Source of the DNA: Nitrospira sp.
Lineage (GTDB): Bacteria; Nitrospirota; Thermodesulfovibrionia; Thermodesulfovibrionales; Dissulfurispiraceae
DNA length: 64,000 bases
Reading direction: 5' to 3'
Assembly (NCBI GenBank): GCA_002634385.1
Contig: NSJL01000004.1
Span: 1 to 64,000 of the forward strand
Below the pieces are notes generated by a model. That model saw nothing but the letters and a program-made list of their open reading frames with translations, was not told the DNA's origin and ran no database searches. Made by a program: the position numbers and the translations under genes. Below are positions 5,314-21,510 of this stretch, piece by piece (position 1 is the stretch's first letter; each line of letters begins with the position of its first letter).

Positions 5314-6867
5314 CTAGATTTTATTTTTGCTCTTTTTCCCTCCCCGGGCACTTACCGACGGTGTATTCCCTTCATGCACATTCAGAGGACAATCGTGTGC
5401 GACCTCGTATTTTCTCAGTTTTCTCCATAAAGTGGAAAAGTCGACGCCGAGGAGACTGGAGGCCATCGTCTTACTGCCGCCGACAAGGGTGAGAACATTC
5501 AGGATGTGTTCCTTTTCCACACTTTCGAGAGACAGGTCCTTTTTGAAATTGGGAGAGGGGGTTGCTATTTCAGCTGGAATGTCATCCGTTGTGATCTCGT
5601 TCGTTTCCGCTACCACCACCGCCCTCTCGATAGTATTTTCAAGCTCCCTGATATTCCCGGGCCACGGGTAGATGATCATTTTTTCCATTGCCTCATTGGA
5701 AATCTTTCGTACATTCTTCCCCAGCTTTTTATTGAATTTATTAACGAAATATCTGGCGAGCAGAGGGATATCCTCCGCTCTTTCCTTCAGCGGAGGAAGA
5801 GATATTTTTATCACGTTTAACCGGTAGTACAGATCTTCCCTGAAATCCTTCGACCGGACCGCTTCCTCAAGATCCTGGTTTGTTGCAGCTATGATTCTTG
5901 CGTCTACGGAGACAGGGGTGGTGCCGCCCACTTTAAAAAAGGTTTTGCTTTGCAGAAACCTGAGGAGCTTGGCCTGTAAATTCTTGCTCATCGCGTTTAT
6001 TTCGTCCAGGAAAATAGTGCCGGCATCCGCCATTTCCAAAAGGCCTTTTTTATCTACCGTAGCACCGGTAAACGCGCCTTTCATATAGCCGAAAAGCTCG
6101 GATTCCAGTAAATTCTCGGGTATTGCGGCACAATTGACTGCGATAAAAGGCCTTTCTCTCCGGATGCTGTTGAAATGTATCGCTCTTGCGATCAGCTCTT
6201 TCCCGGTACCGCTTTCTCCGCATACCAGGATGCTTGAAGTGACATCCTTTACTTTTTTCACCAGGCTGATGACTTTCGTCATTTTCGGGCTGACCCCGAG
6301 TATCCCCTCATATCCGAAATGACGTAATTTCTCTTCAGCCTCTCTTTTTACGCTTTCGAAAAGCTTGGAGTTCTCTATGGCAAGGCTGATAGGCACGGTA
6401 GCGGCTCTCATGATATCGAGCATATCCTCATTTACTGTGTAAGGAGTCAGAGTGATGACGCAGAGGACACCGATCACTTTCCCTTTAGCGTTCAGGGGGA
6501 GCCCTGCATAAAATTCTATTCCCGCCTTTTTTTGCAAATCACGGGTGAACCGGGGGTCCTGAGATGCCTTCTCGAGGATTACGATCTCCTGGTCGAGCTG
6601 TGCTACGCTGCCGCATACACACTCGCCCAGCTTCATCATGTTGTCCTGGATATCCCTGATTATTTCTTCAGAAATGTTTCTGGATATCACGGGTACCAAT
6701 TCCATTGTCTTTTCATCAATGACAAATACGATGCCCGCATCTACTTTCATGAAGGAAATTATTTTTTCGAGCACATCGCTGAGAGTTATTTGCACATCGA
6801 GAGATTTACTGACAGTTAACGCTATATCATAGAGAATACAAGTAGGACTGTTTCTTCCATTGACCAT
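5314..6867 (-). CDS. Sigma-54-dependent transcriptional activator (GAF-AAA+-Fis HTH)
   Basis: A 517-residue bacterial enhancer-binding protein. The N-terminal GAF-like sensor (about residues 10-175) includes DVQITLSDVLEKIISFMKVDAGIVFV and GECVCGSVAQ. The AAA+ domain has Walker A GESGTGKE (about 218), the sigma-54 contact loop GAFTGA (about 265) and Walker B TIFLDEINA. The C-terminal Fis-type helix-turn-helix contains KTMASSLLGVDFSTLWRKLRKY. The start at 6867 was chosen because GGAG lies eight bases upstream; longer in-frame starts lack a site. It is divergent from 7218, whose promoter matches sigma-54. Two more sigma-54 promoters lie in the next 9 kb, so it is the likely activator of the whole cluster. 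The GAF ligand is unknown. Confidence 0.9.
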   Translation of the reverse strand: MVNGRNSPTCILYDIALTVSKSLDVQITLSDVLEKIISFMKVDAGIVFVIDEKTMELVPVISRNISEEIIRDIQDNMMKLGECVCGSVAQLDQEIVILEKASQDPRFTRDLQKKAGIEFYAGLPLNAKGKVIGVLCVITLTPYTVNEDMLDIMRAATVPISLAIENSKLFESVKREAEEKLRHFGYEGILGVSPKMTKVISLVKKVKDVTSSILVCGESGTGKELIARAIHFNSIRRERPFIAVNCAAIPENLLESELFGYMKGAFTGATVDKKGLLEMADAGTIFLDEINAMSKNLQAKLLRFLQSKTFFKVGGTTPVSVDARIIAATNQDLEEAVRSKDFREDLYYRLNVIKISLPPLKERAEDIPLLARYFVNKFNKKLGKNVRKISNEAMEKMIIYPWPGNIRELENTIERAVVVAETNEITTDDIPAEIATPSPNFKKDLSLESVEKEHILNVLTLVGGSKTMASSLLGVDFSTLWRKLRKYEVAHDCPLNVHEGNTPSVSARGGKKSKNKI

Positions 6868-7110
6868 TTGCTGCTCTCCGGAGGTACAATATAGGCCTGA
6901 TTTATTGTTCCTGCACAGATCCATCATATAGTATAGCATTCCTGTTCTTTTGCAGACAGCAATGGGCTTTCGTGCTGTCTGGGCCAAGGGAGCATAGGCT
7001 TCCCTGAGATGATGGACTCATAGCTCATCGCTGTTTATTCTACTATTGTACTTCTTTAAGAGCTCTTCTACAATTGGGGATTGTCAAAGGAATCCGTATA
7101 GATGTGGAGT

Positions 7111-7217: not shown

Positions 7218-7967
7218 ATGAATAAGAGAAGAGCGGAGGAGAAGCTGACCTCATGGATACAGAAGCGGGCTCTGTCCGAGGGAGTCGACCTGTTCGGTGT
7301 TGCTTCAGCGGAAGCTCTCTTGTCCGCCCCGGAAGGATTCCGTCCGGAGGACATCCTGCAGGGCAGCAAGGCCGTTGTTATCGTAGGGAAAAAGCTTTCA
7401 GATGCAACAGTGAATACCGCACCCAGCCGTATGTTCGATGTAATGTACTCGGCCACCAATAGCTTTCTCGACCTGTTGGTCCTTAAGATAGCGGACGCTA
7501 TAAGCTCTCAGGGGTACAGGGCTATTGCAATGGGTCCTCATTCCTGGAACAAAGGGCTCCTTCGCGGAGATATTTCGTATAAACATGCTGCAGTAGCTGC
7601 CGGGCTGGGCCGCTTCGGTCTCCAGTCATTGGTGCTTACCCCCCACTATGGTCCGAGGCAGCGGTGGAGCGCGGTCATAACAGACGCGCCCCTTGAGCCA
7701 GGTGCTCCTCTGGAAAAAGGGCTCTGCGATCCGCAAAAGTGCGATTATGCCTGTGTCAGAAGCTGTCCTGCCGGTGTTTTTTCCGAACGGAAAGCAGAAG
7801 GAGCCGTCCAGGATTACTTGCCGGGTGGGCTATGGTACTACTGGAATATCAATAAAAAAGAGTGTGTGGCATACCGTGCTCCTAAAAGGGAAGAACTCGG
7901 ACTGACGACTTTGGAAGGGCATGCATGCGCTCTCTGCAAGAAAGTGTGTCCTGTCGGGACCACATAG
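7218..7967 (+). CDS. QueG-like [4Fe-4S] protein (corrinoid-reductase-like)
   Basis: A 249-residue protein resembling the iron-sulfur/cobalamin-dependent epoxyqueuosine reductase (QueG) and reductive-dehalogenase family. It has VDLFGVASAEAL at the N-terminus, GLGRFGLQSLVLTPHYGPRQRWSAVITD in the middle, and two cysteine clusters, CDPQKCDYACVRSCPAG and CALCKKVCPVG, that can bind [4Fe-4S] centres. QueG itself is about 350-380 residues, so this is a short paralogue and probably not the tRNA enzyme. AGGAGG precedes ATG 7218. It has its own sigma-54 promoter and sits beside corrinoid methyltransferase genes. A role in reducing or reactivating the corrinoid, or in redox chemistry of the substrate, is a reasonable inference but unproven. 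Confidence 0.75.
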   Translation: MNKRRAEEKLTSWIQKRALSEGVDLFGVASAEALLSAPEGFRPEDILQGSKAVVIVGKKLSDATVNTAPSRMFDVMYSATNSFLDLLVLKIADAISSQGYRAIAMGPHSWNKGLLRGDISYKHAAVAAGLGRFGLQSLVLTPHYGPRQRWSAVITDAPLEPGAPLEKGLCDPQKCDYACVRSCPAGVFSERKAEGAVQDYLPGGLWYYWNINKKECVAYRAPKREELGLTTLEGHACALCKKVCPVGTT

Positions 7968-8302: not shown

Positions 8303-8539
8303 AAATATGCGTACCTCGTGTATTTAAATCGGAAAAAGTCCGCCTTCGACCGGCTGCACCGAAACGGATTCCACTCCACCCCGAAAAAAACTCTGTTTTT
8401 CGGGAACCCTCTCCGTTGTCCCGGACAAAACGTTCTCAACGGAGCCCTGTCCCCTTATCCGGGAACGGTTCGTCCGGTCCCGAAGCGAAGGCCATCTGCC
8501 TGCACTTCCTTTGGAGAGTTCTGGAAAACAAAAGGTATA

Positions 8540-8555
8540 TGGAACAAAAATTGCT
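8540..8555 (+). promoter_or_regulatory. Sigma-54 promoter P2 (DMSO-reductase-like operon)
   Basis: The sequence tggaacaaaaattgct matches the -24/-12 consensus with correct spacing. It is nearly identical to P3 at 14807. The predicted start near 8565 leaves a leader of about 165 nt before the GTG at 8730. Confidence 0.75.
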
Positions 8556-8562
8556 TTGCCTT

Positions 8563-8681
8563 TTAAAATCCAGATGCAAAAAATCCGGAATAGATGGCTG
8601 AAAAGGAGGTGCCTCGGAGGAGGACAGGTGGTAGTCCCGAGGGGAGTTTATTTTTTTCGCTCCCGCGGAGAGAGGGCTGTA
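8563..8681 (+). ncRNA. Conserved structured 5' leader, copy A (unknown class)
   Basis: From ttaaaatccagatgca to gagagaggg this leader matches 14831-14950 over about 120 nt, interrupted by small indels. Shared blocks include gatggctgaaaaggaggtgc, gaggaggac, ggtggta and ggggagttta. A terminal hairpin (gggag ... ctccc, 8642-8664) and a possible ggac/gtcc stem are visible. A short open frame (8594-8704) crosses it, but a one-base indel relative to copy B breaks frame conservation, so RNA or DNA conservation is more likely than a peptide. The aggtgcc and ggtggta-tcc blocks faintly recall cobalamin riboswitches, but the B12-box core is absent. Confidence 0.5.
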
Positions 8682-8729
8682 AAGCAACCAGAGGAAAAGT
8701 ATGAACTTTTATCAGGCAAGGAGGTATCG

Positions 8730-11573
8730 GTGGAACAGGAGAGGGAAAAGGCAGATGAAGAGCTGGCCAACAAGGGATCGGTAGGGAGGAGAACATTCCT
8801 GAAAGGGCTCGGGGCATTGGGCGCCGCTGCTTCCCTGAACGTCTTATACCGCACGGAGGCGCAGGCGACCCTGTCGAAAGAGACAAGAGGGCTTGAACCC
8901 CCGCCCATCAAAGGCACCGTAGTCCCCGGGGCGGCACCCCACAACTGCGGCGGCCGGTGTGTAACGAAAGCATACGTGGAAAACGGGGTGATCAAAAGGA
9001 TCGTGACCGATGAGAGGCCCGACAAAAACCTCATCGATGGAACGGGGAACGATCCGCAGATACGCGCCTGCTCACGCTGCAGGTCCTATCGTGAGCGGAT
9101 CTACCGCTCCGACAGACTGACATACCCGTTGAAGCAGACGAAAGAGAGGGGGGACCTCTCGGGTTTTGTGAGGATCTCCTGGGATCAGGCGCTCACCGAG
9201 ATCGCCGAAAAGATGCAAAAGATCAAGTCCCTGTACGGCAATAAGGCCTTCTACTTCAATTACGGAACAGGAGATGTGGGTGCCGGGGGCTACCTCGGGC
9301 ATGTCCCGAGGCTCCTGAACAAATTCGGCGGGTATGTGCCCTACCGGAACGATTACAGCTGGCCGAATATAGAATTCGTTTCGTGGTTCGCCTTCGGGTA
9401 TAACTACTTCTGGGAATACGGAAACAGCAGGGATAATGCGCTGAACGCGGAGCTCCTTGTCCTGTGGTCCAACAGCTATGCCGACCTGATCATCGGGTCG
9501 AACTCCACCTGGTATATGACACAGGCGAGGGAGAAAGGGGCAAAGGTGGTCGCTGTCGACCCGAGACAGAACGATACTGTCTCTACGCTGGCCGACCAGT
9601 GGATCCCTGTGGTCCCCGGAACCGATGCGTCCCTGCTCCTTGCCCTTATGTACGTCATGATCGAGGAGGACCTGCTCGATGTCGATTTTGTGAAGAAGTA
9701 TGTCCATGGCTTCTATGATGATCCACATCCGGGTCTTTACCATGACGATGTGGCTGCGGCCAAATATACCGTCCCCGCGGGCGCCTCTCTGAGCGCCTAT
9801 ATTCTCGGGACGGACGAGTACCTGGTGAAAAAGGGAATCAACAAGGCGACTTCGGTCTATCCGGACACCATTCACTATAACGTGAACAAGACGGACCCCC
9901 TGTACGGGAAATCGGTCCCAATCTATGGAAAGGTCCCGAAGACACCCGAATGGGCAGAGAAAATAACGGGGGTGTCCGCCCAGGCGATCAGGAAGCTTGC
10001 CCGGGAGTGGGCGACGAAGAAGACCACCACCTACATCGGGGCCGGATTCCAGAGGCAGCCGGAGGGAGAGCAGGCCGTCTGGCTGATCTATATAATGGGT
10101 ATCATTACCGGGAACTTCGGCAAGACGGGCACCAACGTCGCCATTCCCGGAAGCAGGGGGGGCGGCTTTCCCTTCATCCTGCTTACCCATGAAAAACTGA
10201 AGTATGCCCCTTACGGCTTCACCGCAATCGCCGACGACCTGGAGAAGGATATCTATGATCCAGCCAAACTGACGGCGCCGAAGTATACCCCTTCTTTCTA
10301 CACCAAGAACGCGATACCCGTATTCCTCTGGGCAGACCTGGCGCAAAACGGTGGAACCGGGGAGTCGGAATGGAACGACGGTCAGATCAAGAAGTCGAAG
10401 GTGGGCATAAAATGCATGATGAACTTTGCGGGGAATGTCCTTTTAAACCAGCATGGCGATTGCAACAAACTGGTGAATCTTCTGAAGGACAGATCCAAGA
10501 TGGAGCTCATTGTGGTAGCCGATCAGTTCATGACCCCGAGCGCACGGTATGCAGACTATCTCCTGCCCGCTGCGATGAACTGGGAGAAGGAGGATGCAAC
10601 CACTACCTGGGTGACGGGGGAGACGGTAATTTTCCAGAACAAGGCGGTCGACCCCCCCGGGGAGTGCCGGCACGACTACGACATATGCACAGGACTCGCA
10701 GAGAAATTGGGGATCGGAGAGGCCTTTACCGAAGGCAAGAAGTATGAGGAGTGGCTGAAAGAGGCGTGGAAGACGGCCCTTGGTGAGCCCATCCCCTATG
10801 AGAAATGGAAAAAAGACGGTGTCTATACCTTTCCCGAGCTCCCTTCGCATCTCTCTTTCAAAGAGTTCAGGGAAGACCCGCGGAAGAGCGCCCTGTTGAC
10901 CCCATCGGGCAAAGTGGAGGCCTACTCACAGGCAATGCTGGAGGACTATGAGGCACGGGGGTATGTCAATGCCGATACCCGTATCACCCTTTCCGGGCGA
11001 CTCCACGACGGCAGCGACAAGGGCAGGTTCGTCTATCCGATCCCAATGTACATCCCCCTTCCGGAGGGGAGGCATGCCGATGGATTGCATCCCGATCCGA
11101 CGGGTGCCCTTTCGAAAGGATACCGGTTTCAGCTCCTTACGCCGCATCCCCGGTACAGAGTCCATTCCACCCACAACGTCAATGCATACCTGAATGAACT
11201 GTACAAAAAGGACGAGGCAGGGCACCCCGTGCATTTCAAACAGGCGAAAGGACCGCTGCAGACCTGGGACAGCAACGTCTATGAACCGGTATGGATGAAT
11301 CCCGGAGATGCGCAGGAGCTGGGGATCGGTCATGGGGATATCGTCAAGATCTTCAACGACAGGGGAGCGGTACTGGCCTCCGCTCATCTCACCCACCGGA
11401 CGATGCCCGGGATTGTCCTGCTTGCCCAGGGCTCCTATTATACGCCCGGCAAAGACGGCGTTGACAGAGGCGGAAATCCCAACACCCTGACCTCACAGAG
11501 GCCGTCGAGGATATGCCAGGCGGATTCCCTGGGGGCCAACACGCTGGTGGGCATAACGAGAGTCACAACATAG
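8730..11573 (+). CDS. TAT-exported molybdopterin oxidoreductase, DMSO reductase (DmsA)-like
   Basis: A 947-residue catalytic subunit. The GTG start at 8730 is chosen because AAGGAGG precedes it and gives a compact TAT signal (RRTFLKGLGALGAAASLNVL). It follows the DmsA pattern: YFNYGTGDVGAGGYLGH, KVVAVDPRQNDTV, DQWIPVVPGTDASLLLALMYVM, NFAGNVLLNQHGDCN and LTSQRPSR. Ser210 in RNDYSWPN aligns with the molybdenum-ligand serine of DmsA. The FS0 cluster motif reads A69-x3-C73-x3-C77...C114, so the usual first cysteine is an alanine. Likely role: reduction of an S- or N-oxide, or a related reaction, at the outer face of the membrane. It heads an operon with a ferredoxin, a chaperone and a polyferredoxin, but no membrane anchor subunit is present. 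Confidence 0.85.
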   Translation: MEQEREKADEELANKGSVGRRTFLKGLGALGAAASLNVLYRTEAQATLSKETRGLEPPPIKGTVVPGAAPHNCGGRCVTKAYVENGVIKRIVTDERPDKNLIDGTGNDPQIRACSRCRSYRERIYRSDRLTYPLKQTKERGDLSGFVRISWDQALTEIAEKMQKIKSLYGNKAFYFNYGTGDVGAGGYLGHVPRLLNKFGGYVPYRNDYSWPNIEFVSWFAFGYNYFWEYGNSRDNALNAELLVLWSNSYADLIIGSNSTWYMTQAREKGAKVVAVDPRQNDTVSTLADQWIPVVPGTDASLLLALMYVMIEEDLLDVDFVKKYVHGFYDDPHPGLYHDDVAAAKYTVPAGASLSAYILGTDEYLVKKGINKATSVYPDTIHYNVNKTDPLYGKSVPIYGKVPKTPEWAEKITGVSAQAIRKLAREWATKKTTTYIGAGFQRQPEGEQAVWLIYIMGIITGNFGKTGTNVAIPGSRGGGFPFILLTHEKLKYAPYGFTAIADDLEKDIYDPAKLTAPKYTPSFYTKNAIPVFLWADLAQNGGTGESEWNDGQIKKSKVGIKCMMNFAGNVLLNQHGDCNKLVNLLKDRSKMELIVVADQFMTPSARYADYLLPAAMNWEKEDATTTWVTGETVIFQNKAVDPPGECRHDYDICTGLAEKLGIGEAFTEGKKYEEWLKEAWKTALGEPIPYEKWKKDGVYTFPELPSHLSFKEFREDPRKSALLTPSGKVEAYSQAMLEDYEARGYVNADTRITLSGRLHDGSDKGRFVYPIPMYIPLPEGRHADGLHPDPTGALSKGYRFQLLTPHPRYRVHSTHNVNAYLNELYKKDEAGHPVHFKQAKGPLQTWDSNVYEPVWMNPGDAQELGIGHGDIVKIFNDRGAVLASAHLTHRTMPGIVLLAQGSYYTPGKDGVDRGGNPNTLTSQRPSRICQADSLGANTLVGITRVTT

Positions 11574-11647
11574 TAGAGCGGCGGATGCTGAAGATCTCCG
11601 GAACAACCGCTTAACCGATACGAACTTTTCATAGGGAGGTGGATGTA

Positions 11648-12280
11648 ATGCAATGGGCATGGTACTATGATCAAACGAGATGCATCGGGTGCAATACATG
11701 TGTGGTCGCATGCAAGGACTGGAACGACGTCAAACCCGGCCCTGCAAAGTGGAGGCGGCTTACTGTGAAAGAAACAGGGGCTTTCCCCAACGTGGGGGTA
11801 TTCAACCTGGTCATGGGCTGCAACCACTGTGAGAACCCCGCGTGCGTGGCAGCCTGCCCGGTGGGGGCCGTCATGAAGAGGGAGGAGGACGGGATCGTCG
11901 TCGTAAACAGGGAGAAATGCCAGGGATGGAAAGCGTGTCTGGCACGATGTCCTTTTGAAACGCCGCAGTTCGGGGATGCCGAAAGCGAGCCCGTGAGGCA
12001 GAAAAACTGGCTGGTTGATCATCCTATGCAGAAGTGCCACTTCTGCTGGGACAGGAAAAAAGAGGGCAAAAAACCCGCCTGTGTGGACTCGTGCCCCAAC
12101 AGGGCGCTCGACGCAGGACCGATGGAGGACCTGATGAGAAAGTATCCCGATGCAGTGCGGGTGGTCCAGGGCTTCCCCGACTCAGCCCGGGACCGTTCCG
12201 GCAATCTTCTCACTTCAGGCGCTACCAGACCGTCAATACTGTTCAAGCCGAAGCCGCCGCAGAAACCCGAAGTGCTGTAA
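11648..12280 (+). CDS. DmsB-like four-cluster ferredoxin subunit
   Basis: A 210-residue electron-transfer subunit with four cysteine clusters: CIGCNTCVVACKDW, CNHCENPACVAACPVGA, CQGWKACLARCPFETP and CHFCWDRKKEGKKPACVDSCPN. In the third cluster the second position is Trp (CQGW), as in E. coli DmsB. The ATG at 11648 follows GGGAGG with eight bases spacing; a GTG three codons earlier overlaps that site. It starts 74 bp after the catalytic subunit and should shuttle electrons to it. There is no signal peptide, so it is probably co-exported with the folded catalytic subunit through TAT. Confidence 0.9.
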   Translation: MQWAWYYDQTRCIGCNTCVVACKDWNDVKPGPAKWRRLTVKETGAFPNVGVFNLVMGCNHCENPACVAACPVGAVMKREEDGIVVVNREKCQGWKACLARCPFETPQFGDAESEPVRQKNWLVDHPMQKCHFCWDRKKEGKKPACVDSCPNRALDAGPMEDLMRKYPDAVRVVQGFPDSARDRSGNLLTSGATRPSILFKPKPPQKPEVL

Positions 12281-12286
12281 AGGGGG

Positions 12287-12419
12287 CCGGATGCCCTGTG
12301 GAGGAGCAGGGCATCCGGACGTTTCAGGGCGTGCAGGCGTCCTGGTGCACCTCCTGCACAAGAAAAGCGGCACTGTCCGCTTTTGTGTTATTTTATCTAT
12401 AGGCACCCCGTGAGGTGCC
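12287..12419 (+). terminator. Series of hairpins including an intrinsic terminator inside the operon
   Basis: Four dyads lie between the ferredoxin and the chaperone. They are ccggatgccctg/cagggcatccgg (12287-12298/12307-12318), gtgcagg/cctgcac just after it, aaaagcgg/ccgctttt (12363-12370/12377-12384) followed by the T-rich gtgttatttt, and ggcacc/ggtgcc (12402-12407/12414-12419) next to the chaperone ribosome-binding site. The third looks like a genuine intrinsic terminator and would attenuate downstream expression. Confidence 0.6.
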
Positions 12420-12433
12420 GGGGAGACAAGGCA

Positions 12434-13165
12434 TTGATAGACGTAGAAGAATTAATGGACATCCATCAGGGGAGAGAGACGATCTACCGTTTTTTATCCC
12501 GGAGCTATAGAGCGGAAGTCGACGGTGAGTTTCTGGAGACACTCAAGACACTGTTGCCGCATATCGAAGAGATGTCTTTTCACTCGGGAAACGAAAGCCT
12601 TGAAAAGGGGGGAGCGCTTCTGGGAAGTTTCGCACACCGCCTCTCTCATCCCCCCTTGGGTAAAGAGAAAGGGGCGGAGCTCATCCTGGAGTTGCACCGT
12701 GAGTTTGCCTCCCTCTTCCTTGTCGGGGTGCATACGATACCGTGTTCCGAATCGGTCTACCGTTCTCCCGAGCGGCTCATCAAACAGGAACCGAGGGAGA
12801 AAGTGGTAAAAAGATACCGGGATATCGGCTTCACCGTCTCACCACAATGGAGGGAGCCCGAAGACCATATCGCCATCGAGCTGGAGTTTATGGCAAGCGT
12901 TTCCCGTTTCGCGTACGAAGCGGCTGACAGGGGAGATCCGGAAGGGCTGAGGCGCTCTCTGAACTGCCAGAGGGAATTCATGGAGGAGCACCTCGCCAGG
13001 TGGATTCCGCATTTCTGTACGCTCCTTGCCGCACGGGCGGGGGATGACAGTTTCTACAAGGCACTCTCTCATCTCACTGACGGCTTTCTGGAAATGGATT
13101 ATGAATTCCTGAAGGCATCCGTCCCGGCATCTGGGCCGAAAAGGGAGGAAGCTCAAGGTGATTAA
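12434..13165 (+). CDS. TorD/DmsD-type molybdoenzyme maturation chaperone
   Basis: A 243-residue all-helical protein of the TorD family. Visible traits are the N-terminal RETIYRFLSRSY, the family-typical VHTIPCSESVYRSPERLIKQEPREKVVKRY, and EDHIAIELEFMASVSR. Such proteins bind the TAT signal of the catalytic subunit and hold it until the cofactor is inserted. The start is uncertain: TTG at 12434 has GGGGAGA upstream, while ATG at 12455 has only a weak site. It overlaps the following ferredoxin gene by 8 bp. Context makes the DmsA-like protein at 8730 its client. Confidence 0.85.
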   Translation: MIDVEELMDIHQGRETIYRFLSRSYRAEVDGEFLETLKTLLPHIEEMSFHSGNESLEKGGALLGSFAHRLSHPPLGKEKGAELILELHREFASLFLVGVHTIPCSESVYRSPERLIKQEPREKVVKRYRDIGFTVSPQWREPEDHIAIELEFMASVSRFAYEAADRGDPEGLRRSLNCQREFMEEHLARWIPHFCTLLAARAGDDSFYKALSHLTDGFLEMDYEFLKASVPASGPKREEAQGD

Positions 13166-14261
13166 TCCAACAACGGTCATCGCAAAGATGGCGGAAGTTG
13201 TTCGTATACAGAAAAACAGCTGTGTGCGGTTGCGGCATAAGAACGCCCAATGCCGTGAATGCATTACTCACTGTCCCGCCGGCGCTATCCAGGTCGGCAC
13301 AGCGGGTGAAAACATCACCATAGAGTGGAGCAAATGCATCGGGTGCGGCATCTGCTGCACGGTATGCAAAACAGGAGTCTATACGCTCAAAGAGTTCAGT
13401 GACCGGCTCTTCCTCGAGAAATGCCGGCAGGCGGTCGTGCACGACAAGGGGCTCGAGATACGATGCAAACAGGCGGGCGGCGGGACACAATGTTCCGGTA
13501 TCGAGGTGCCCTGTCTTGGAATAATTGACCCTGCCCACCTCATCGGCATGGTGGTGTACGGCGCCTCTTCCCTGCACTTGTGGCACGCGGAGTGTGGCAG
13601 ATGCAATGCACGACACGGGGATAGCTGCGTCTCGAAGTCGGTTGGCACTACGGAATCCCTGCTGCGCATCTTCAACCCCGCGAAAAAGGTGATGATAACC
13701 ACAGGGACACATCCGGCTCCCTTTACAAGGGAGGAGAAAGCTGCAAGGGAAAGTGGGCAAAAACCGGAAAAAATGGTATCGAGGCGGGAATTATTCAAAT
13801 ACTTCAAGCTGCAAGCCCTCTTCTCCGCTGCAGAAACCGTCGATATCTTTCCGGAGGAACAACAGAAACCGGAGAGGGGAGGAATCGGGTATACGAATTT
13901 CCTGCCTGAAAGAAGGGAGCTCCTGATCGCTTTTCTCAAGAGGTTGGGAAATCCCCCCGGAGGGGTACAGGACAGCTCTGAATGTGCATTGATCGCTGAG
14001 CTCGAAATTGAGAGCAATGAATGTGATGGATGCGGAATGTGCTATCACTTCTGTCCCACCCACGCCCTGCGGGAATATAACGACTCCGATGATGCCCGCG
14101 GGAAGGCAGCCGGACGGGAAATTCGCTTCAAATCATCCCATTGTGTAAAATGTGACCTCTGCCTCGTTGCCTGCTACCGTAAAGCGATCTGCTACACGGA
14201 GAGCTTTGATAGGGAACGCTTCATTGAGGAGCGCGAAAAAATCCTCAAGAAAATAGAATAG
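13158..14261 (+). CDS. Multi-cluster [4Fe-4S] ferredoxin protein
   Basis: A 367-residue cytoplasmic iron-sulfur protein starting at GTG 13158, with GGAGG upstream. Four cluster motifs are arranged as two pairs: CRECITHCPAG and CIGCGICCTVCKTG near the N-terminus, CDGCGMCYHFCPTH and CVKCDLCLVACYRK near the C-terminus. Between them is a region with more cysteines (CKQAGGGTQCSG, AECGRCNARHGDSC). There is no signal peptide or membrane segment, so it probably passes electrons on the cytoplasmic side, while the DmsA/DmsB-like proteins work outside. Similar polyferredoxins accompany TorD-type operons. It is translationally coupled to the chaperone by overlap. Confidence 0.8.
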   Translation: MINPTTVIAKMAEVVRIQKNSCVRLRHKNAQCRECITHCPAGAIQVGTAGENITIEWSKCIGCGICCTVCKTGVYTLKEFSDRLFLEKCRQAVVHDKGLEIRCKQAGGGTQCSGIEVPCLGIIDPAHLIGMVVYGASSLHLWHAECGRCNARHGDSCVSKSVGTTESLLRIFNPAKKVMITTGTHPAPFTREEKAARESGQKPEKMVSRRELFKYFKLQALFSAAETVDIFPEEQQKPERGGIGYTNFLPERRELLIAFLKRLGNPPGGVQDSSECALIAELEIESNECDGCGMCYHFCPTHALREYNDSDDARGKAAGREIRFKSSHCVKCDLCLVACYRKAICYTESFDRERFIEEREKILKKIE

Positions 14262-14411
14262 GCAGGGAGAGAATCTGTCTTATCCTGCCTGCATCACCTC
14301 TCCTCCGAGATCATTCCTCACGATGTCATGCCCTTTCTCCACTGTCCCTCACTTCTCCCGAGGTGCTTACCCCTCAATTTGCTCTCTCATTATTATATAA
14401 GAACCTATCAA

Positions 14412-14515
14412 CTGGCATTTTGCAAGAAATTGCAAACGCTTTGATTAATAGACATATTAAGAAAGACTACGTATCTATCTTCCGGAAAGCTTGCAAAAAT
14501 CCGGCATTTTGCAAG
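14412..14515. promoter_or_regulatory. Paired enhancer-like sites upstream of the methyltransferase operon
   Basis: Half site ctggcattttgcaag (14412-14426), followed by the dyad cttgcaaaa (14490-14498) - 8 bases - ttttgcaag (14507-14515), again preceded by tccggaaag. Sequence and spacing closely match 8006-8109. The dyad is about 290 bp upstream of the sigma-54 promoter at 14807. Confidence 0.65.
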
Positions 14516-14703
14516 AAATTGCAACCTCTTGATATCTAAATAGAATATGAAAGGCAAAAAGTAAAATATCATGAAGCCTTTGAAGTACTTCGCTCTTTGC
14601 AAGTAAATTTCTGCTTTATATTACTTCGGTACGGCCTTGATGTATGCCTTTTTATATTTGATCCGTCCTTTTCTTGAGAGTATCGTGCAATGTCCACGCT
14701 GAT

Positions 14704-14736
14704 TGTCATTGCGAAGGGACGTATCCCGAAGCAATC
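14704..14736. repeat. Short dispersed palindromic repeat (gtcattgcgaag family)
   Basis: This copy reads gtcattgcgaagggacgtat followed by cccgaagcaatcc. A closely similar sequence (with gtcgtaccct) is at 38934-38965. Such imperfect palindromes are common extragenic repeats. It lies in the control region of the methyltransferase operon. Confidence 0.6.
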
Positions 14737-14806
14737 CAATTGCTTTTCACTGAATCGTTTCTTTGACTCGTTTGCTCCGGGAGGATTCCCGAAAGCAATA
14801 GGCATA

Positions 14807-14822
14807 TGGAATAAAAATTGCT
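14807..14822 (+). promoter_or_regulatory. Sigma-54 promoter P3 (methyltransferase operon)
   Basis: The sequence tggaataaaaattgct has TGG and TTGC at the correct distance and differs from P2 at a single base. The predicted start near 14832 gives a leader of about 200 nt before the corrinoid-protein gene. Confidence 0.75.
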
Positions 14823-14830
14823 CTTAACCT

Positions 14831-14950
14831 CTTAAAATCCAGATGCAGGGGATTCGGAGAAATGGCTGAAAAGGAGGTGCCTCAGAGGAGGACGGGTGGT
14901 AATCCCGTGGGGAGTTTATTGTTTACCGCTCCCGGGGAGAGAGGGTTGTT
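14831..14950 (+). ncRNA. Conserved structured 5' leader, copy B (unknown class)
   Basis: This is the counterpart of 8563-8681. A hairpin acggg-tggtaat-cccgt (14892-14908) and a larger gggag ... ctccc hairpin (14910-14934) are visible. The two leaders stand before operons with different first genes, so the RNA probably answers to a signal shared by the regulon rather than to one enzyme. No known riboswitch class is recognised. Confidence 0.5.
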
Positions 14951-15034
14951 GTGAAAAAAGGATGATTTTCTTGTAAACGGGCAGGGGAGAGACGGTACCG
15001 GTTAACAATCAATGAAAGAGGCGGGGAGGACCAA

Positions 15035-15697
15035 ATGGCGAAGCAGGAAGAGCTTTTGATGAAGTTGAGGAGTTCCATCAGTTCACTCGATGTGGAAGGG
15101 GCGGAAAAAACAGCGCAAGAGCTTGTGAAGAGCGGGGGGGACCTGATCAAGGCCTGCGAAGCGATGGCAGAGGAGATGACCCAACTCGGCCAACAATTCG
15201 AATGCAAAGAGATCTATCTGCCCGAACTGGTTATCGCCGGGGATGCGATGAAGGCGGCTTTACGAATCCTGGAGCCGGCGATGATCAAGTCCGGCAATAC
15301 CATGAAGAAACTCGGTACGGTGGTAATCTGTACGGTGAAAGGCGATGTGCATACCCTTGGGAAGGACATTGTGGGTACTTTGATGAAGACTGCCGGTTTC
15401 GATGTGATAGACCTCGGCGGCGATGTGGCGCCTTCGCGGCTGATCGATGAGGCAAAGGCGGTAAACGCCGACATTATCGCCTGTTCGGCGCTGATGTCTA
15501 CCACGGTTGTCGTTCAGAAGGATGTGGTGGACTTTTTGAACGCATTGGGGTGCCGGAGCTCCTTCAAGGTTCTTGTGGGCGGTTGCTGCTCGAGTGAGGA
15601 ATGGGCCGAAAAAATCGGGGCGGACGGCTATGGGCTGGATGCAAAATCAGGAGTTGATGTTGCAAAGAAGTTGATCACGCAGAGAGCGGCGGCCTGA
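15035..15697 (+). CDS. Corrinoid protein of a methyltransferase system (MttC/MtgC-like)
   Basis: A 220-residue protein. The N-terminal helical cap (residues 1-90, KACEAMAEEMTQLGQQFECKEIYLPELV) and C-terminal Rossmann B12-binding domain are typical of methylamine/betaine corrinoid proteins. The cobalt-ligand motif is DVHTLGKDIV with His106; further B12 contacts are SALMSTT and GGCCSSEEWAEKIGADGYG. It accepts a methyl group from the substrate-specific MttB-family enzyme encoded next, and usually passes it to a second methyltransferase acting on tetrahydrofolate or CoM, which is not in this window. GGGGAGG precedes ATG 15035. It is the first gene after P3. Confidence 0.92.
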   Translation: MAKQEELLMKLRSSISSLDVEGAEKTAQELVKSGGDLIKACEAMAEEMTQLGQQFECKEIYLPELVIAGDAMKAALRILEPAMIKSGNTMKKLGTVVICTVKGDVHTLGKDIVGTLMKTAGFDVIDLGGDVAPSRLIDEAKAVNADIIACSALMSTTVVVQKDVVDFLNALGCRSSFKVLVGGCCSSEEWAEKIGADGYGLDAKSGVDVAKKLITQRAAA

Positions 15698-15748
15698 GAA
15701 TGAAAAAAACCATAAACACGAGAGGAATAACCGAAAGGAGGAGTAAGG

Positions 15749-17209
15749 ATGTCTACGAGCAATAGAGGAAAATACTTGGATTTCTATGCACGGTGTGAAA
15801 CCGGGCCGATATGCCCGAAGAAGCAGTTTGATACCGAGGTATACTGGAAAAACCTTAACCGTATTACCAAGAAATACAATATTAAGTACGATCCCGAACA
15901 TCCGATCCCGGTTGACGACGATGTGCTGGACCGGCTCTGGGAGGCAGCCATAGAGTTTGTAGTGGCCTGTGGTGTGCTCTGCCTCGATACGGAGAGGATC
16001 ATCAAGTTCACCGAGCAGGAGATCATGGACGGCCTCGAAAACCTGCCCACGGAAGTCACCTGGGGCGAGGGCAAGGATGCAATCGTGGTCAGGCACAGGG
16101 GATTCGAAGATTATGATTCCGGCAAGAACCCGGTCTTTACGATTGGCCGTATCTCAGGGCCTGTCACAGAAGACGTACATGACTCGATCTGCCTTTCGTA
16201 TGCCAAAGAGCCGCTCATAGACCTGGTGCAGTTCCAGGGGGCGGTCTCATCAATAATGGGCGTTCCTATCAAACCCTCATCTCCTTTTGAGCTGCTTGCG
16301 GAAATGAAGAGGCAGGCGATGGTCCTCGATGTCTGCCGGAGGGCCGGCCGCCCCGGCCTCCCCGACAAGGGAAGCACTCCGGTTACGCTCCGCGCCGAAA
16401 TGGCAGGCGCAATGTCCGGGATGAGAAAGGGCGATATGCGGCATGCGTACATCATGCCTCATATGTGCACGGATTATGACCAGATGTGCAGGGCCGCTTT
16501 CTGGCATGCGAACGGTTTCGGTGTGTGGAGCATAGGGGAGGCCTTCGTCGGTTCCATCTCCGGAGGGCCTGCAACATCCGCGGTAAACTGCCTGGCCGAG
16601 CTCATCGTCATTACGCTTCTCTATGAGCCTGTTCAGCTGGGGGTCTGGTCGTGCGACGGCATCTATTTTACCAATGCCAGCAGAGAAACGTTTTTCGTGA
16701 ACAACTATTCGGCTGCTTCCTATATGCGGCATACCCATGCCCCGAGCCTGTGGGGCGGCTGCGCAATAGCAACGGCACAGGTTATGAGCAAAGAGTATTT
16801 TTATGAATTCGGGGCCGGCGCTATCTGCACGACGGTCCTGGGCCTGGGGGCAAACGGAGGTTCCGGCTGCCAGAGCGCCCGGCCCAACCACGTTACGGGA
16901 CTCGGGGTGAGATGGGGTGCCGAGGTCGGCAGGGCGGTCGGTAAGGCGAGGCTGACGAGAAAGCAGGCGAACGATATCGTGAACCAAATCCTGCCGAAGT
17001 ACCAGCCCTACATCGACAACAAGACACTGCACACCATAGGGGAAGGGGGGTTCAAAGAGGCATATGACCTGGAAACCGTCACTCCGAATGAACGCTACAT
17101 GCAGATATACGAGAGCGTGAAGAAAGAGTTCCAGGACCTCGGCTTGCCGATGAATCATTCCCGCGAAGAGCTGCTTGCTGCAAAGGATCTCCGGGCGGCG
17201 GCAGCGTAG
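15749..17209 (+). CDS. MttB-superfamily corrinoid methyltransferase (non-pyrrolysine)
   Basis: A 486-residue member of the trimethylamine methyltransferase (MttB) superfamily. It transfers a methyl group from a quaternary amine or similar compound to the corrinoid protein encoded 51 bp upstream. The TIM-barrel C-terminal half contains GGPATSAVNCLAELIVITLLYEP, MSKEYFYEFGAGAI and GGSGCQSARPNHVTGLGVRWGAE. The reading frame has no in-frame UAG before its natural stop, so it is of the non-pyrrolysine type. Characterised non-Pyl relatives demethylate glycine betaine, proline betaine, carnitine or related compounds. The exact substrate here cannot be read from sequence. AAAGGAGG precedes the start. 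Confidence 0.9.
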   Translation: MSTSNRGKYLDFYARCETGPICPKKQFDTEVYWKNLNRITKKYNIKYDPEHPIPVDDDVLDRLWEAAIEFVVACGVLCLDTERIIKFTEQEIMDGLENLPTEVTWGEGKDAIVVRHRGFEDYDSGKNPVFTIGRISGPVTEDVHDSICLSYAKEPLIDLVQFQGAVSSIMGVPIKPSSPFELLAEMKRQAMVLDVCRRAGRPGLPDKGSTPVTLRAEMAGAMSGMRKGDMRHAYIMPHMCTDYDQMCRAAFWHANGFGVWSIGEAFVGSISGGPATSAVNCLAELIVITLLYEPVQLGVWSCDGIYFTNASRETFFVNNYSAASYMRHTHAPSLWGGCAIATAQVMSKEYFYEFGAGAICTTVLGLGANGGSGCQSARPNHVTGLGVRWGAEVGRAVGKARLTRKQANDIVNQILPKYQPYIDNKTLHTIGEGGFKEAYDLETVTPNERYMQIYESVKKEFQDLGLPMNHSREELLAAKDLRAAAA

Positions 17210-17236
17210 CCGGAGGTAAAGCCGCATCTGTGTAAG

Positions 17237-17276
17237 GCCGTCTTATGGCCGGTATCCTCATCGGCCATAAGACGGC
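17237..17276 (+). other. Perfect 15-bp hairpin between methyltransferase and membrane-protein genes
   Basis: gccgtcttatggccg (17237-17251) pairs perfectly with 17262-17276 across a 10-base loop. There is no T-tract, so it is more likely an mRNA-processing or stability element within the operon than a terminator. Confidence 0.6.
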
Positions 17277-17356
17277 GCGGTGCAGGGAAAGCGGCGGATT
17301 GCTTTCGGCGGTCGAATGGGAACACAAAAGAGGGAAATATAAGAAAGGGGTGCACA

Positions 17357-18478
17357 ATGTCAGATAATGCCCAATACAGTGTTGTGGAGGATAGCAGAAA
17401 CTTGCTTGGCAGTGATGCCAGAAGCGCAATGGTGGATACTACCCTGATTCCGAACGCCGGCAGCCTGATCAGAGGATTGCCATGGGCCATCGGAGTATTC
17501 GTTTTTTCTTTTATCACCTGGATGTTTTGGGAAAAGTTCTTTCAGAACTTCATGTCCCCTTCGTACGCACAGATGTCTTCCGTCGGGATGGGTACGCTCG
17601 GAGCCTGGACGATCAGCATGCATCCGGTGTTTGGCTACTGGCCTTTCGGCGGTATCTCGAGCAGGTGGGTCAAAGGTATCCTTTCCGCTCTGTTCTGCTT
17701 CCTTGTAACCGCAGTTTTCTTCATTCTGCTGGGCAGTGTCTTCCAGGTGAACCTCCAGACCTGGGCCTTTCCCATCATCGGGACCGTATGGTTTTTCACT
17801 GCGGCGCTCATGTTCGTCGGCGGCAATGCCCATATGCAGAGCATAAAGGAACCGAGGGCGACTACGCTGAACATTTTCATTATTATCGGAGCAACGCTTC
17901 TCGTTCTGGCCACGATCACCTGGGTGCCTCCTTTCTGGTTCCAGTACGTACAGACCCTCATGGTTACCGGGGGTCTGGCATACATGCTCCGGGGAATGAA
18001 ACAGCCCGGAGTCAGCTTTTTCGGCTGGGCGATAGCGATCGGACTTACCTGGATCACCGTGGTGGTCGCGGCTGCTTTGGGGCACTGGGAGCTCAAGGCG
18101 GCAGGTTCGCCGGGATGGCTGTGGAATATCGGCCAACCTTCGCTTGAATACCAGATCTTCTTCGCATACGCCTGCGGCTTCAACTTCACGTTTTTTGCGA
18201 TAACCAAGTGCTGGCCGTTCTCCCGAATCCGTCAGCCCTGGGGATTCTGGCTTGCGCTGTTTTCCATGCTGACCTGGTCCCTGATTCTCACTGCGATTAC
18301 GGTCTCTCTCTTCAACAGCTATTACCCCGATAAAGCCGCGGCAATGTGGCAGGCAAGCATCTTCTCCTGGCAGACCGTGGTGTGGGGCTGGGTCTGGGTG
18401 TATTCGTTCGGGGCGGGTTCGCAGCCGTATCTCTGGAAAGGGCAGAAGACTCCCGGGACATGGGATGATGTGGAATGA
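17357..18478 (+). CDS. Polytopic membrane protein, possible substrate permease
   Basis: A 373-residue integral membrane protein with a roughly 40-residue cytoplasmic N-terminus and about nine hydrophobic segments. Examples are LPWAIGVFVFSFITWMFW, ILSALFCFLVTAVFFILLG, TLNIFIIIGATLLVLATI and WLALFSMLTWSLILTAITV. It is rich in Trp and Phe (WFFTAALMFVGG, WVPPFWFQY). I do not recognise a characterised family. Its place between the methyltransferase and the oxidoreductase suggests uptake of the methylated substrate or membrane docking of the redox partner; both are inference. AAAGGGG precedes the start. Confidence 0.75.
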   Translation: MSDNAQYSVVEDSRNLLGSDARSAMVDTTLIPNAGSLIRGLPWAIGVFVFSFITWMFWEKFFQNFMSPSYAQMSSVGMGTLGAWTISMHPVFGYWPFGGISSRWVKGILSALFCFLVTAVFFILLGSVFQVNLQTWAFPIIGTVWFFTAALMFVGGNAHMQSIKEPRATTLNIFIIIGATLLVLATITWVPPFWFQYVQTLMVTGGLAYMLRGMKQPGVSFFGWAIAIGLTWITVVVAAALGHWELKAAGSPGWLWNIGQPSLEYQIFFAYACGFNFTFFAITKCWPFSRIRQPWGFWLALFSMLTWSLILTAITVSLFNSYYPDKAAAMWQASIFSWQTVVWGWVWVYSFGAGSQPYLWKGQKTPGTWDDVE

Positions 18479-18592
18479 CCCGGGCTTCGATACGCAGAGC
18501 CCCTTATTGTAAAATACTCAGGAAATATATGAGAGGGCAGGCAGCTCGCAGGATGGTTATAGCAAAAATGACGCCTGACCGTGGGAGACCTT

Positions 18593-20854
18593 ATGACCAC
18601 ACGAAATGAGCTTTTTTATTCCGCTGATGAACTGAAGCAGATTATTGAAAGGGAGCTGCCCTGCCCGGAGGTCTCGCTGGCGCGCACTCCCTTACCGAAG
18701 AAGACCACTGCGAACGGTGCCAAAGTGGAAGGGGTGGAGGTGGTGAAAACGGCCTGCAGTCATAACTGCTATGACACCTGCGGGGTGCTTGCCTTTGTCA
18801 AGAACGGGAGGTTGCTGAAGGTGGAGGGAGACCCCGACCATCCCATAACGCGGGGGACTCTCTGTGTCAAAGCCTATACGTATCCTCAGCGCGTTTATTC
18901 CGAGGAGCGGATAAAATATCCTTTGCTGCGTACCGGAAAGCGCGGCGAGGGAAAGTTTACCCGTATCTCCTGGGAGGAGGCATTCGATCATATAGGAAAG
19001 AAGCTGACAAAGATCAGGCAGGAATACGGTTCCGAGGCTTTGGTTGAGTACTGTTACAGCGGCAACCGTGAATTTCTCGCGAAAAGCATCTCCGGGAGAT
19101 TCCTGAATCTGTTCGGCGCTTCCAAGCTGGTCGGCAGCTTCTGAGTGCTTTCCGGGTTGTCGGGGGCAACCGCAAGCTTCGGACGTGATCTTTCGATGCA
19201 GGCAGTGGAGATCTGGACAAAGTACACCGATTTCATGATTTTGTGGGGATGCAACCTGTCTGCAGCCGGCATACACCACCTCAGATTTGTCCTTGAAGCA
19301 AAGGAGCGTGGAGTACCGATGGTGGTGGTCGATCCCTATGTTACTGCGGTGGCTTCCAAGTCGGACATGCACCTTCAATTGCTCCCCGGTACGGACACTG
19401 CCCTGGTATTAGGGATGATGAACCATATCATCGACTGCAACCTGCATAACAGGGATTTTATTGAGCGCTATACCTTCGGTTTCGAGGCGTTGAGAGAGGT
19501 GGTGCGGGAATGGCCGCTGGAGCGCACTGCTTCCGTTACGGGACTCTCTGTCAAGAAGATCGCCTGGGTCGCTGAAATGTACGCCACGCACAACTCGATG
19601 GTTGAATGCGGTATGGGCCACCAGCGCTACACCAACGGCCATCAGGCGCAAAGGGCCATAAGTTGCCTGGCCGCTGTTACCGGAAACGTCGGGAAGCCGG
19701 GCGCCCACTGTAACTTCATGGAGGTCGGCTCAGCCTATACCGGCTTTCTCAACTCTGAAGGAATACAGAATCCCCCCGGCGCGAATATCCGGAAAACACG
19801 TCTTATCAGCATCAGCCACTTCGGACCTGCGGTGCGGGAAGCGCGCACCCCGCCCATAAAGGCGGTCATCAGCTGGCGCGGAGCCATGATCACGCAGCAA
19901 CCCGATGTCAGGGGCATGCTGAAAGCGGTCCGGGGGCTGGATCTCTATGTGTGCCTGGAGCAGCAGATGACCGATGACACCCAATGGGCCGATATCGTCC
20001 TGCCCGCCTGTACCCTGTTCGAGCAATGGGGAGTTCATCCCAGCTACCGGCATCACTATCTGCAAATCCAACAGCCGGTCATCGCCCCCCTTTATGAGAG
20101 CATGCCCGACATCGACTTCTGGTGTGAGCTCGGCCGCAGGATGGGTTTCCATAAGTTCTTCCCCGTGGAGAAAACAGGGTTGGAATGGTGTAAGGAATTT
20201 CTGCCCAGGAGCTTCGATATGACGCAGGCGCTCGGTCCGAACGGACCGGTCCGGATGCCGGAGCGTTTCTGTCCGTCCATTCCCCATATGTCCGGCCGGT
20301 TTAATACTCCTTCGGGAAAGATCGAGCTTTACTCGCTGATGTATGCGGAGCGGGGCAAGAAATTCCCTGGTGAATGGAACCCCCTGCCTGTTTACTATCC
20401 GCCGACGGAGAGCCTTCAGGGGGACCCGAACCGGGCGAAGAAGTATCCGTTGCACCTCACTTCACAGCACCCCCCTTACCGGACGCATTCTCAATTTTAC
20501 ACCGTCCCTTCCATAAATGAGATTGACGGGCCTCCCTGGGTAGGGATCAATGCCGAGGACGCCCGGGAGCGCGGCATTAAGGACGGAGATACGGTGCTTG
20601 TATTCAATGACCGGGGCGAGGTGCGCTGTCAGGCGCGTGTGAGGAATCGTTTCCTCCGGAACGTCGTGGAACTGGACAGCGGATACTATGTAAAGACCGG
20701 AGCCAACGCCAACATGCTCATGAGTCCTCGTGCAGCAGGGCCCAGGGACGTCGGCAAAGGAATAATGCAGGAGTACGATTTTCAACTCGATGGCCACACC
20801 ATTCCTTACAACGACTGCCTTGTCGAGATCAAAAAATGGGAGGAGCAGACATGA
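18593..20854 (+). CDS. Selenocysteine-type molybdopterin oxidoreductase, catalytic subunit (UGA read-through)
   Basis: Two abutting frames in the same phase, 18593-19144 and 19145-20854, form one 753-residue DMSO-reductase-superfamily protein if the in-frame TGA at 19142-19144 is read as selenocysteine (residue 184). The N-terminal [4Fe-4S] motif is complete: CSHNCYDTC (55, 59, 63) and C91. Sec184 falls in LVGSF-U-VLSGLSGATASFG, the loop that supplies the Mo/W ligand (Ser, Cys or Sec) in this family. A hairpin directly after the TGA fits a bacterial SECIS. Later motifs are intact: MILWGCNLSAAG, LPGTDTALVLGMMN, GNVGKPGAHCNF and LTSQHPPYRTHSQ. No TAT signal, so probably cytoplasmic. ATG 18593 follows GGGAG. 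It is coupled to the next ferredoxin gene. Substrate unknown. Confidence 0.82.
19142..19177 (+). promoter_or_regulatory. Candidate bacterial SECIS element with its UGA codon
   Basis: After the TGA at 19142-19144, GCTT (19147-19150) pairs with AAGC (19174-19177) and GGTTG (19155-19159) with CAACC (19067+100 to 19171, i.e. 19167-19171). They are separated by a small internal loop and capped by the 7-base loop TCGGGGG (19160-19166). The apical loop begins about 16 bases after the UGA and carries guanines, as expected for SelB recognition. Confidence 0.65.
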
Positions 20855-21363
20855 GAGGGCCGCGGATACTGTATTTTGACAGGGAACGGTGTGTAGGGTG
20901 CCATGCCTGTGAGACTGCCTGCAAGATGGAGAACAACATCGGGGTAGGCCCCAAATGGATAGAAGTAGTAGAGCAGGAGTTTCCCCGGGGAGACGACACC
21001 TGGCTTTTACGCTTTTCACCTATGAGCTGCAGGCACTGCACTAATCCTTTATGTCTGGCTGCATGTCCTGTGGGAGCAATCGAAACTGATACGAATGGTG
21101 TTGTCCTGGTTAATAAAAGCCGCTGTATAGGATGTATCGAATGCCTGAACGTATGTCCTTTCGGTTCTCCGCAATTCGGTCGTGACGGCTTAATGGAGAA
21201 ATGTACCCTGTGCGCCCACCGGGAGCCGGATGAACCGACAGCATGTGAACAGCTTTGCCCCGTAGGAGCGATCAGCAGGACCGCTCCTGCAGGCATTTCC
21301 TCGCAAAGGCGGAAAAGATACCTGACAATGGCCTCTCCCCTTCTGAAAGCGGAAGAGAGATAA
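20851..21363 (+). CDS. Four-cluster ferredoxin subunit of the selenocysteine oxidoreductase
   Basis: A 170-residue electron-transfer protein with clusters CVGCHACETACKMEN, CRHCTNPLCLAACPVGA, CIGCIECLNVCPFGSP and CTLCAHREPDEPTACEQLCPVGA. It resembles DmsB/HycB-like subunits. ATG 20851 overlaps the stop of the catalytic subunit by four bases (ATGA), with GGGAGGAG upstream, so the two are translationally coupled and presumably form a complex. There is no signal peptide, in keeping with a cytoplasmic enzyme. It is the last gene of the methyltransferase operon. Confidence 0.9.
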   Translation: MRGPRILYFDRERCVGCHACETACKMENNIGVGPKWIEVVEQEFPRGDDTWLLRFSPMSCRHCTNPLCLAACPVGAIETDTNGVVLVNKSRCIGCIECLNVCPFGSPQFGRDGLMEKCTLCAHREPDEPTACEQLCPVGAISRTAPAGISSQRRKRYLTMASPLLKAEER

Positions 21364-21510
21364 TCCTCATAGAACAGGGGAGATGCTGCCTCACGTTTAC
21401 CTTTCTCTATTTGGAAGATGAGTTTTTTTGTCTTGTAAAATCATTGTAATATCAACTAAGTTCCTTCCAAATCGCCCATCTGAGTGCAAAAGCCGTCCGG
21501 GAAAATACAA

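Follow-up and report, generated by a model that had tools for sequence, protein, structure and literature searches.

A predicted selenocysteine-containing branch of the DMSO-reductase superfamily and its possible tie to methyl transfer in a Nitrospirota genome

In the window, by which we mean the whole analysed stretch of 64,000 nucleotides of Nitrospira sp. (contig NSJL01000004.1), a gene for a molybdenum or tungsten enzyme is divided by an in-frame TGA and lies downstream of genes for methyl transfer. Does this codon stand for selenocysteine (Sec), to which family would the enzyme belong, and does it act together with its neighbors?

An in-frame TGA at the metal-ligand position

The frame runs on the forward strand from the ATG at 18593 to a stop TGA at 20852-20854, and its 753 codons contain a single internal TGA, codon 184, at 19142-19144. 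Profile searches placed the Pfam domains Molybdop_Fe4S4, Molybdopterin and Molydop_binding in order along the 753-residue product, on both sides of the TGA. This assigns the predicted Mo/W bis-PGD catalytic subunit to the MopB (DMSO-reductase) superfamily, with which the fold matches given below agree, and it bears out the first-pass annotation, which had described an in-frame TGA in an otherwise intact gene of this superfamily. Open-TGA-open frames are not rare in the G+C-rich window, where several strand and frame cases occur, so that homology and not the frame pattern has to decide on the Sec reading. In the alignment with E. coli proteins, codon 184 falls in the column of Sec140 of FdhF, of the Ser of DmsA/YnfE and of the Cys of NapA. 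The codon had been placed at the Mo/W-ligand position from the start, and the alignment with Sec140 supports this; Sec184 would accordingly be expected among the ligands of the metal.

All homologues of the family that cover position 184 have TGA or Cys there and nothing else, as the first reading had anticipated, and none carries an inactivating change elsewhere. The TGA is found in five genes of four genomes: the window gene, its paralogue on contig C24 of the same genome (L071, 76% identical to the window gene), two Nitrospirota relatives (L073/L023, 77%; L072, 56%) and a gene of a Bacillota MAG contig (L022, 60%). Cys occupies the column at 32 loci, nearly all from Bacillota, with one Synergistaceae MAG. 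Careful phylogenetic analysis of the family joined the Sec genes of Nitrospirota and of L022 in a single cluster with support (99/92), L072 branching close to the cluster base; these genes therefore count as few independent witnesses. Judged from these sequences, Nitrospirota members of the family have Sec, and most of those from Bacillota and Synergistota have Cys. A genome of the same genus has the C-terminal part in a copy of 93% identity, together with the same 4Fe-4S gene, so that a binning error can be dismissed as the origin of the window locus.

The part of the gene 3′ of the TGA was compared with that of the paralogue. Differences affected 12% of the second and 48% of the third codon positions, and the upstream part gave a similar result. 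Because second-position differences are so much rarer than third-position ones, the comparison indicates that purifying selection persists downstream of codon 184. No second lesion was found in 18593-20854 besides this TGA.

Predicted decoding of the TGA as selenocysteine

The machinery that a Sec reading presupposes was found complete. Profile searches of the genome itself recovered selA (613 bits), selB (370 bits) and selD (325 bits), and a tRNA-Sec with the anticodon TCA (UCA) was detected at 71 bits and also called by ARAGORN. The selD gene (G000:C44:37974-38888, L018) has an in-frame TGA of its own, so that SelD is probably a selenoprotein as well. Among the Nitrospirota genomes with close (Sec-type) members, selA is present in all four that were searched, one of these members being known only from pieces short of codon 184. 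A search of the Bacillota MAG L022 did not find selA despite the TGA-type gene, and more than half of the genomes with Cys forms are without it. The final stop of 18593-20854 is itself TGA, which argues that this codon is not generally reassigned.

A hairpin following the TGA at a SECIS-like distance had been noticed in the first pass, and it was recovered here at 19155-19171, nucleotides 14 to 30 from the U of the UGA (GGUUGUC-GGG-GGCAACC). It consists of 7 bp closed by a 3-nt GGG loop, the spacing from the UGA to the loop is 17 nt, and the enclosing 42-nt fold has an energy of -13.6 kcal/mol. It satisfies every published bSECIS rule: a loop of 3-9 nt, a stem of 4-16 bp, a G in the first two loop positions, a spacing of 16-37 nt and an MFE <= -7.5 (PMC13188914). 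The local folding energy is ordinary (z = -0.42 against dinucleotide shuffles), and the thermodynamic z-score was dropped as uninformative. Comparison between genes provided stronger evidence for a SECIS than folding energy, as far as sequences can tell. Only 1.2% of synonymous variants folded nucleotides 14-30 as well as the window gene does. Codons 187-193 (19151-19171), which hold the apical SECIS hairpin, are identical at the nucleotide level in four Sec genes; this is the sole run longer than two in 704 codons, and the same genes otherwise share 20% of codons at identical residues. The segment of nucleotides 14-30 reached -6.4 kcal/mol or better in all five Sec genes, which are related and hence not independent draws, versus 1 of the 32 Cys genes. 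The three closest relatives favor an overlapping hairpin, and the diverged L072 has a hairpin of different build, in which the GGG stands in the same place. These comparisons support a decoding step in which SelB would read UGA 184 as Sec by means of the hairpin.

The sequence data thus make it nearly certain that 18593-20854 encodes a genuine selenoprotein. Neither of the two outcomes that the first pass had named as refuting the Sec reading was observed. A nonsense mutation in a pseudogene would equally leave a single stop dividing the frame, which usual annotation turns into two fragments, but this is most improbable given the recurrence of the TGA across genomes, the selection acting on both halves, the undamaged remainder of the gene, the Sec machinery and the conserved SECIS block. 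No better are the chances that suppression or an altered code inserts Cys or Trp at codon 184: Cys is indeed the residue of most homologues in this column, but tRNA-Sec(UCA), SelA, SelB and SelD are all in the genome, the gene terminates with TGA and the region after codon 184 is conserved in a SECIS-like manner.

Position of the family within the DMSO-reductase superfamily

The enzyme had been set outside the formate dehydrogenases by the first reading, and both residues and tree confirm this. In the family, the columns of His141 and Arg333 (E. coli FdhF numbering) are occupied by V/I/L and by E/D/N/S, respectively, so that neither the His that follows the ligand in formate dehydrogenases nor Arg333 is conserved. 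In a quick tree with long branches, the family grouped with DmsA/YnfE, away from FdhF, FdnG and NapA (SH-aLRT 95-98). With the catalytic His and Arg absent and the tree placing the family on the DmsA/YnfE side, a formate dehydrogenase was excluded. The family nevertheless shares with the Sec-type formate dehydrogenases (FdhF, FdnG) and with FwdB the DMSO-reductase fold, the Fe4S4 cluster, Sec in the same Mo/W-ligand column, SelB/SECIS decoding and a Lys after the last cluster Cys. It differs from these enzymes in its motif, U(V/L/I)LSG as against UHxP, and the window product scored 244 bits with TIGR01591, whose cut-off is 666.

All NCBIfam models stayed far below their cut-offs with this product. 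The best score, 324 bits against a cut-off of 777.7, was obtained for DmsA/YnfE (DMSO/selenate reductases), which have in common with the window enzyme the C-x3-C-x3-C cluster motif and a DmsB-like partner. Unlike them, the window family has Sec or Cys and not Ser as the ligand, and Lys and not Arg after the cluster, and neither a Tat signal nor DmsC was seen for the window enzyme. Since no Tat signal was evident by eye, the catalytic subunit is probably cytoplasmic. The best sequence match in the PDB was the polysulfide/thiosulfate reductase PsrA (2vpw), whose Cys ligand is at the same place; here too the window enzyme has Lys instead of Arg after the cluster, and no PsrC/NrfD-type anchor was found beside the gene. 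The PhsA model gave 215 bits (cut-off 694).

An AlphaFold model of the catalytic subunit (pLDDT 80) resembled acetylene hydratase, S/N-oxide reductases and formate dehydrogenases to much the same degree, with identities of 20-25%, and the fold cannot therefore name the reaction. The top match was acetylene hydratase (2e7z; TM 0.75, 25% identity), which likewise has a Lys after the cluster. The column of its catalytic residue, which we take to be the Asp beside the cluster Cys, holds Tyr or Phe in the window family (Tyr60 in the window gene, with an invariant Asp61 one residue on), and the window enzyme has an electron-transfer partner.

Read from sequence, the enzyme and its homologues make up a new family, one that falls within the superfamily on the DmsA/Psr side. 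An inventory (2026) of 119 prokaryotic selenoprotein families includes only FdhA and FwdB from the DMSO-reductase superfamily (PMC13188914), and in two surveys of that superfamily Sec ligands are named for no lineages other than FDH and FwdB (PMC7331816, PMC10100899). In the open-licence literature, descriptions of Sec ligating Mo or W are confined to FDH and FwdB; an annotation or a paper elsewhere may exist.

Genes next to the predicted selenoprotein gene

A gene for a DmsB-like 4Fe-4S electron-transfer subunit (20851-21363, forward strand) overlaps with its start the stop of the catalytic gene (ATGA), and such a gene lies 3′ of the catalytic gene in all checked loci whose contig reaches far enough. 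Upstream, on the same strand, are the genes of a corrinoid protein of the MtbC/MtgC type (15035-15697), of a non-pyrrolysine MtmB-family methyltransferase (15749-17209) and of an orphan polytopic membrane protein, a candidate importer (17357-18478). The operon 15035-21363 is only putative because gaps of 147 and 114 nt precede and follow the membrane-protein gene.

The first-pass annotation had linked the enzyme to MttB and corrinoid genes. The corrinoid protein gene is indeed upstream, but the methyltransferase is not MttB, a family that was rejected for 15749-17209 because its sole Pfam match is PF05369 (MtmB). Its frame is open throughout and carries Lys (AAG) at the pyrrolysine column, without the amber-encoded pyrrolysine of Pyl-dependent MtmB; within the MtmB subgroup the residue in this column varies (K/G/G/C/W/G). 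The protein shares the PF05369 fold family and a cognate corrinoid protein with MtmB and MtqB, the latter being likewise non-Pyl. MtqB demethylates tetramethylammonium and choline (PMC13044021), and by analogy these substrates may serve as a lead, and as a lead only, to that of the window methyltransferase.

No credible Pfam or PDB relative was found for the membrane protein, and its AlphaFold model, built from four sequences, was of too low confidence (pLDDT 46) for a fold search. Partners that are 46-49% identical to it lie directly 3′ of MtmB-like genes in two Bacillota genomes. The viral collection contained no homologue, and the plasmid search returned no MtmB and a single distant homologue of the membrane protein, located on a Paraburkholderia plasmid in the vicinity of a gene for acetylacetone cleavage.

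Neither an Rfam scan of the whole window nor a permissive one limited to 14200-21500 yielded anything credible, and no cobalamin riboswitch was found; matches to the sigma-54 promoter pattern were not in excess over chance. A 28-nt direct repeat (GGCATTTTGCAAGAAATTGCAA...) at 14414-14441 and 14503-14530, upstream of the corrinoid gene, is possibly an operator or activator site. The window also encodes, on the minus strand at 5314-6987, a sigma-54-dependent activator with a GAF domain (NifA/PrdR-like), and a similar sigma-54-type activator is located near the methyltransferase cluster of the Bacillota locus L101. A second DMSO-reductase-superfamily enzyme with its 4Fe-4S subunit and a TorD-like chaperone is encoded at 8511-11570, 11639-12280 and 12383-13165; this molybdoenzyme is on the DmsA/YnfE side, has a Ser ligand, and has Ala in place of the first cluster Cys. 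At 7218-7967 lies a gene for a short 4Fe-4S protein that resembles reductive dehalogenases (58 bits with TIGR02486, under the cut-off).

Association with methyltransferase genes in other genomes

The grouping of corrinoid protein, MtmB, molybdoenzyme and 4Fe-4S protein recurs, with Cys forms of the enzyme, in two Bacillota genomes, and this recurrence suggests that the link is probably functional. Two Bacillota genomes have, between them, three copies of the trio of corrinoid protein, MtmB and membrane protein (L099, L100, L101). At L101/L102 the trio is followed by a glycyl-radical enzyme with activase, RACo, the Cys-form enzyme and Fer4. Two glycyl-radical enzymes with activases (L101 11549-14958 and L102 3238-6646) surround one corrinoid/MtmB cluster there, and the first of them reached no NCBIfam equivalog cut-off. 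At L025 the order is the Cys-form enzyme and Fer4, an AhpD-like protein, corrinoid protein, MtmB, then ORFs resembling MTHF methyltransferase and RACo, the AhpD, MTHF methyltransferase and activator names being assigned by eye. Only 2 of the 43 genomes of the class of L025 hold the enzyme, both within ~8 kb of an MtmB-like gene.

The link to methyltransferase genes proposed in the first pass is seen in the window and in two Bacillota genomes, but it is a minority arrangement, absent at the genome's own paralogue, in the Nitrospirota relatives and in most Clostridia. MtmB was present in 3 of the 29 searched genomes with relatives of the enzyme and adjacent to it in one of the three. The paralogue and the Nitrospirota relatives are neighbored by DsrE, OsmC, an SsuA/TauA-type binding protein and permeases (ABC import). 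The Cys forms of many Clostridia sit by lipoyl-DLD, lipoate ligase, AhpD, a second ferredoxin, an AFOR_N protein and an NAD/FAD reductase. Beside the clostridial Cys-form enzyme lies a protein of ~300-400 aa (L024 4938-6158 and the cluster c7 members in L027, L028 and L033); AFOR_N was the sole domain found in the L024 product, a small aldehyde-oxidoreductase-like protein. Because the neighbors differ between these three settings, the enzyme is a module that is combined with various partners, among them the methyltransferase genes.

Within the phylum the MtmB-like gene was found in a single one of 396 genomes, and a search of 100 relatives found the membrane protein only once; both were therefore probably imported into the genome. 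The genome has a second MtmB-like/corrinoid/URO-D set on contig C71 and five RACo-type activators, so that methyl transfer could be completed. A role of the enzyme as a substitute corrinoid activator was dropped in view of these five genes.

The selenoenzyme might be real and yet have no part in what the methyltransferase genes do. It would then be a reductase or oxidase of a general kind, acting for instance on an organosulfur compound or on something else taken up by the cell, and its present neighborhood would be incidental. Both the import-type and the clostridial settings are in line with this explanation, as is the rarity of the two probably imported genes. We nonetheless consider it rather unlikely, since the association recurs in two Bacillota genomes that are the sole holders of the enzyme in their class.

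Discussion

Our best reading is that a known superfamily has a new branch that contains Sec and is tied to a cryptic methyl-transfer pathway. Taken as a whole, with the Sec enzyme joined to corrinoid protein, non-Pyl MtmB and membrane protein, this statement appears reasonably probable. The products of 18593-20854 and 20851-21363 would form a two-subunit cytoplasmic Mo/W bis-PGD oxidoreductase, which most likely acts with these three proteins in the use of methylated compounds. The membrane protein would bring the methylated compound into the cell and MtmB would hand its methyl group to the corrinoid protein. The Mo/W-Sec enzyme may carry out a redox step, in either direction, on the substrate itself or on what is left of it after demethylation, with the 4Fe-4S subunit carrying electrons to or from it. 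More tentatively, and with some doubt on our part, a Sec-liganded Mo/W enzyme outside the FDH/FwdB lineages could catalyze a redox step that has not been described so far and is coupled to the demethylation performed by non-Pyl MtmB with a corrinoid, in a new anaerobic pathway for methyl compounds.

Ordinary annotation cuts Sec genes of this kind into two pieces and so hides them. A Sec/Cys family on the DmsA/Psr side would mean that the exchange of Sec for Cys at the metal site occurs outside CO2/formate chemistry, and the natural Sec/Cys pairs of the family permit a direct test of the role of selenium at the metal. The locus may also offer a clue to what one uncharacterised branch of the non-Pyl MtmB methyltransferases acts on.
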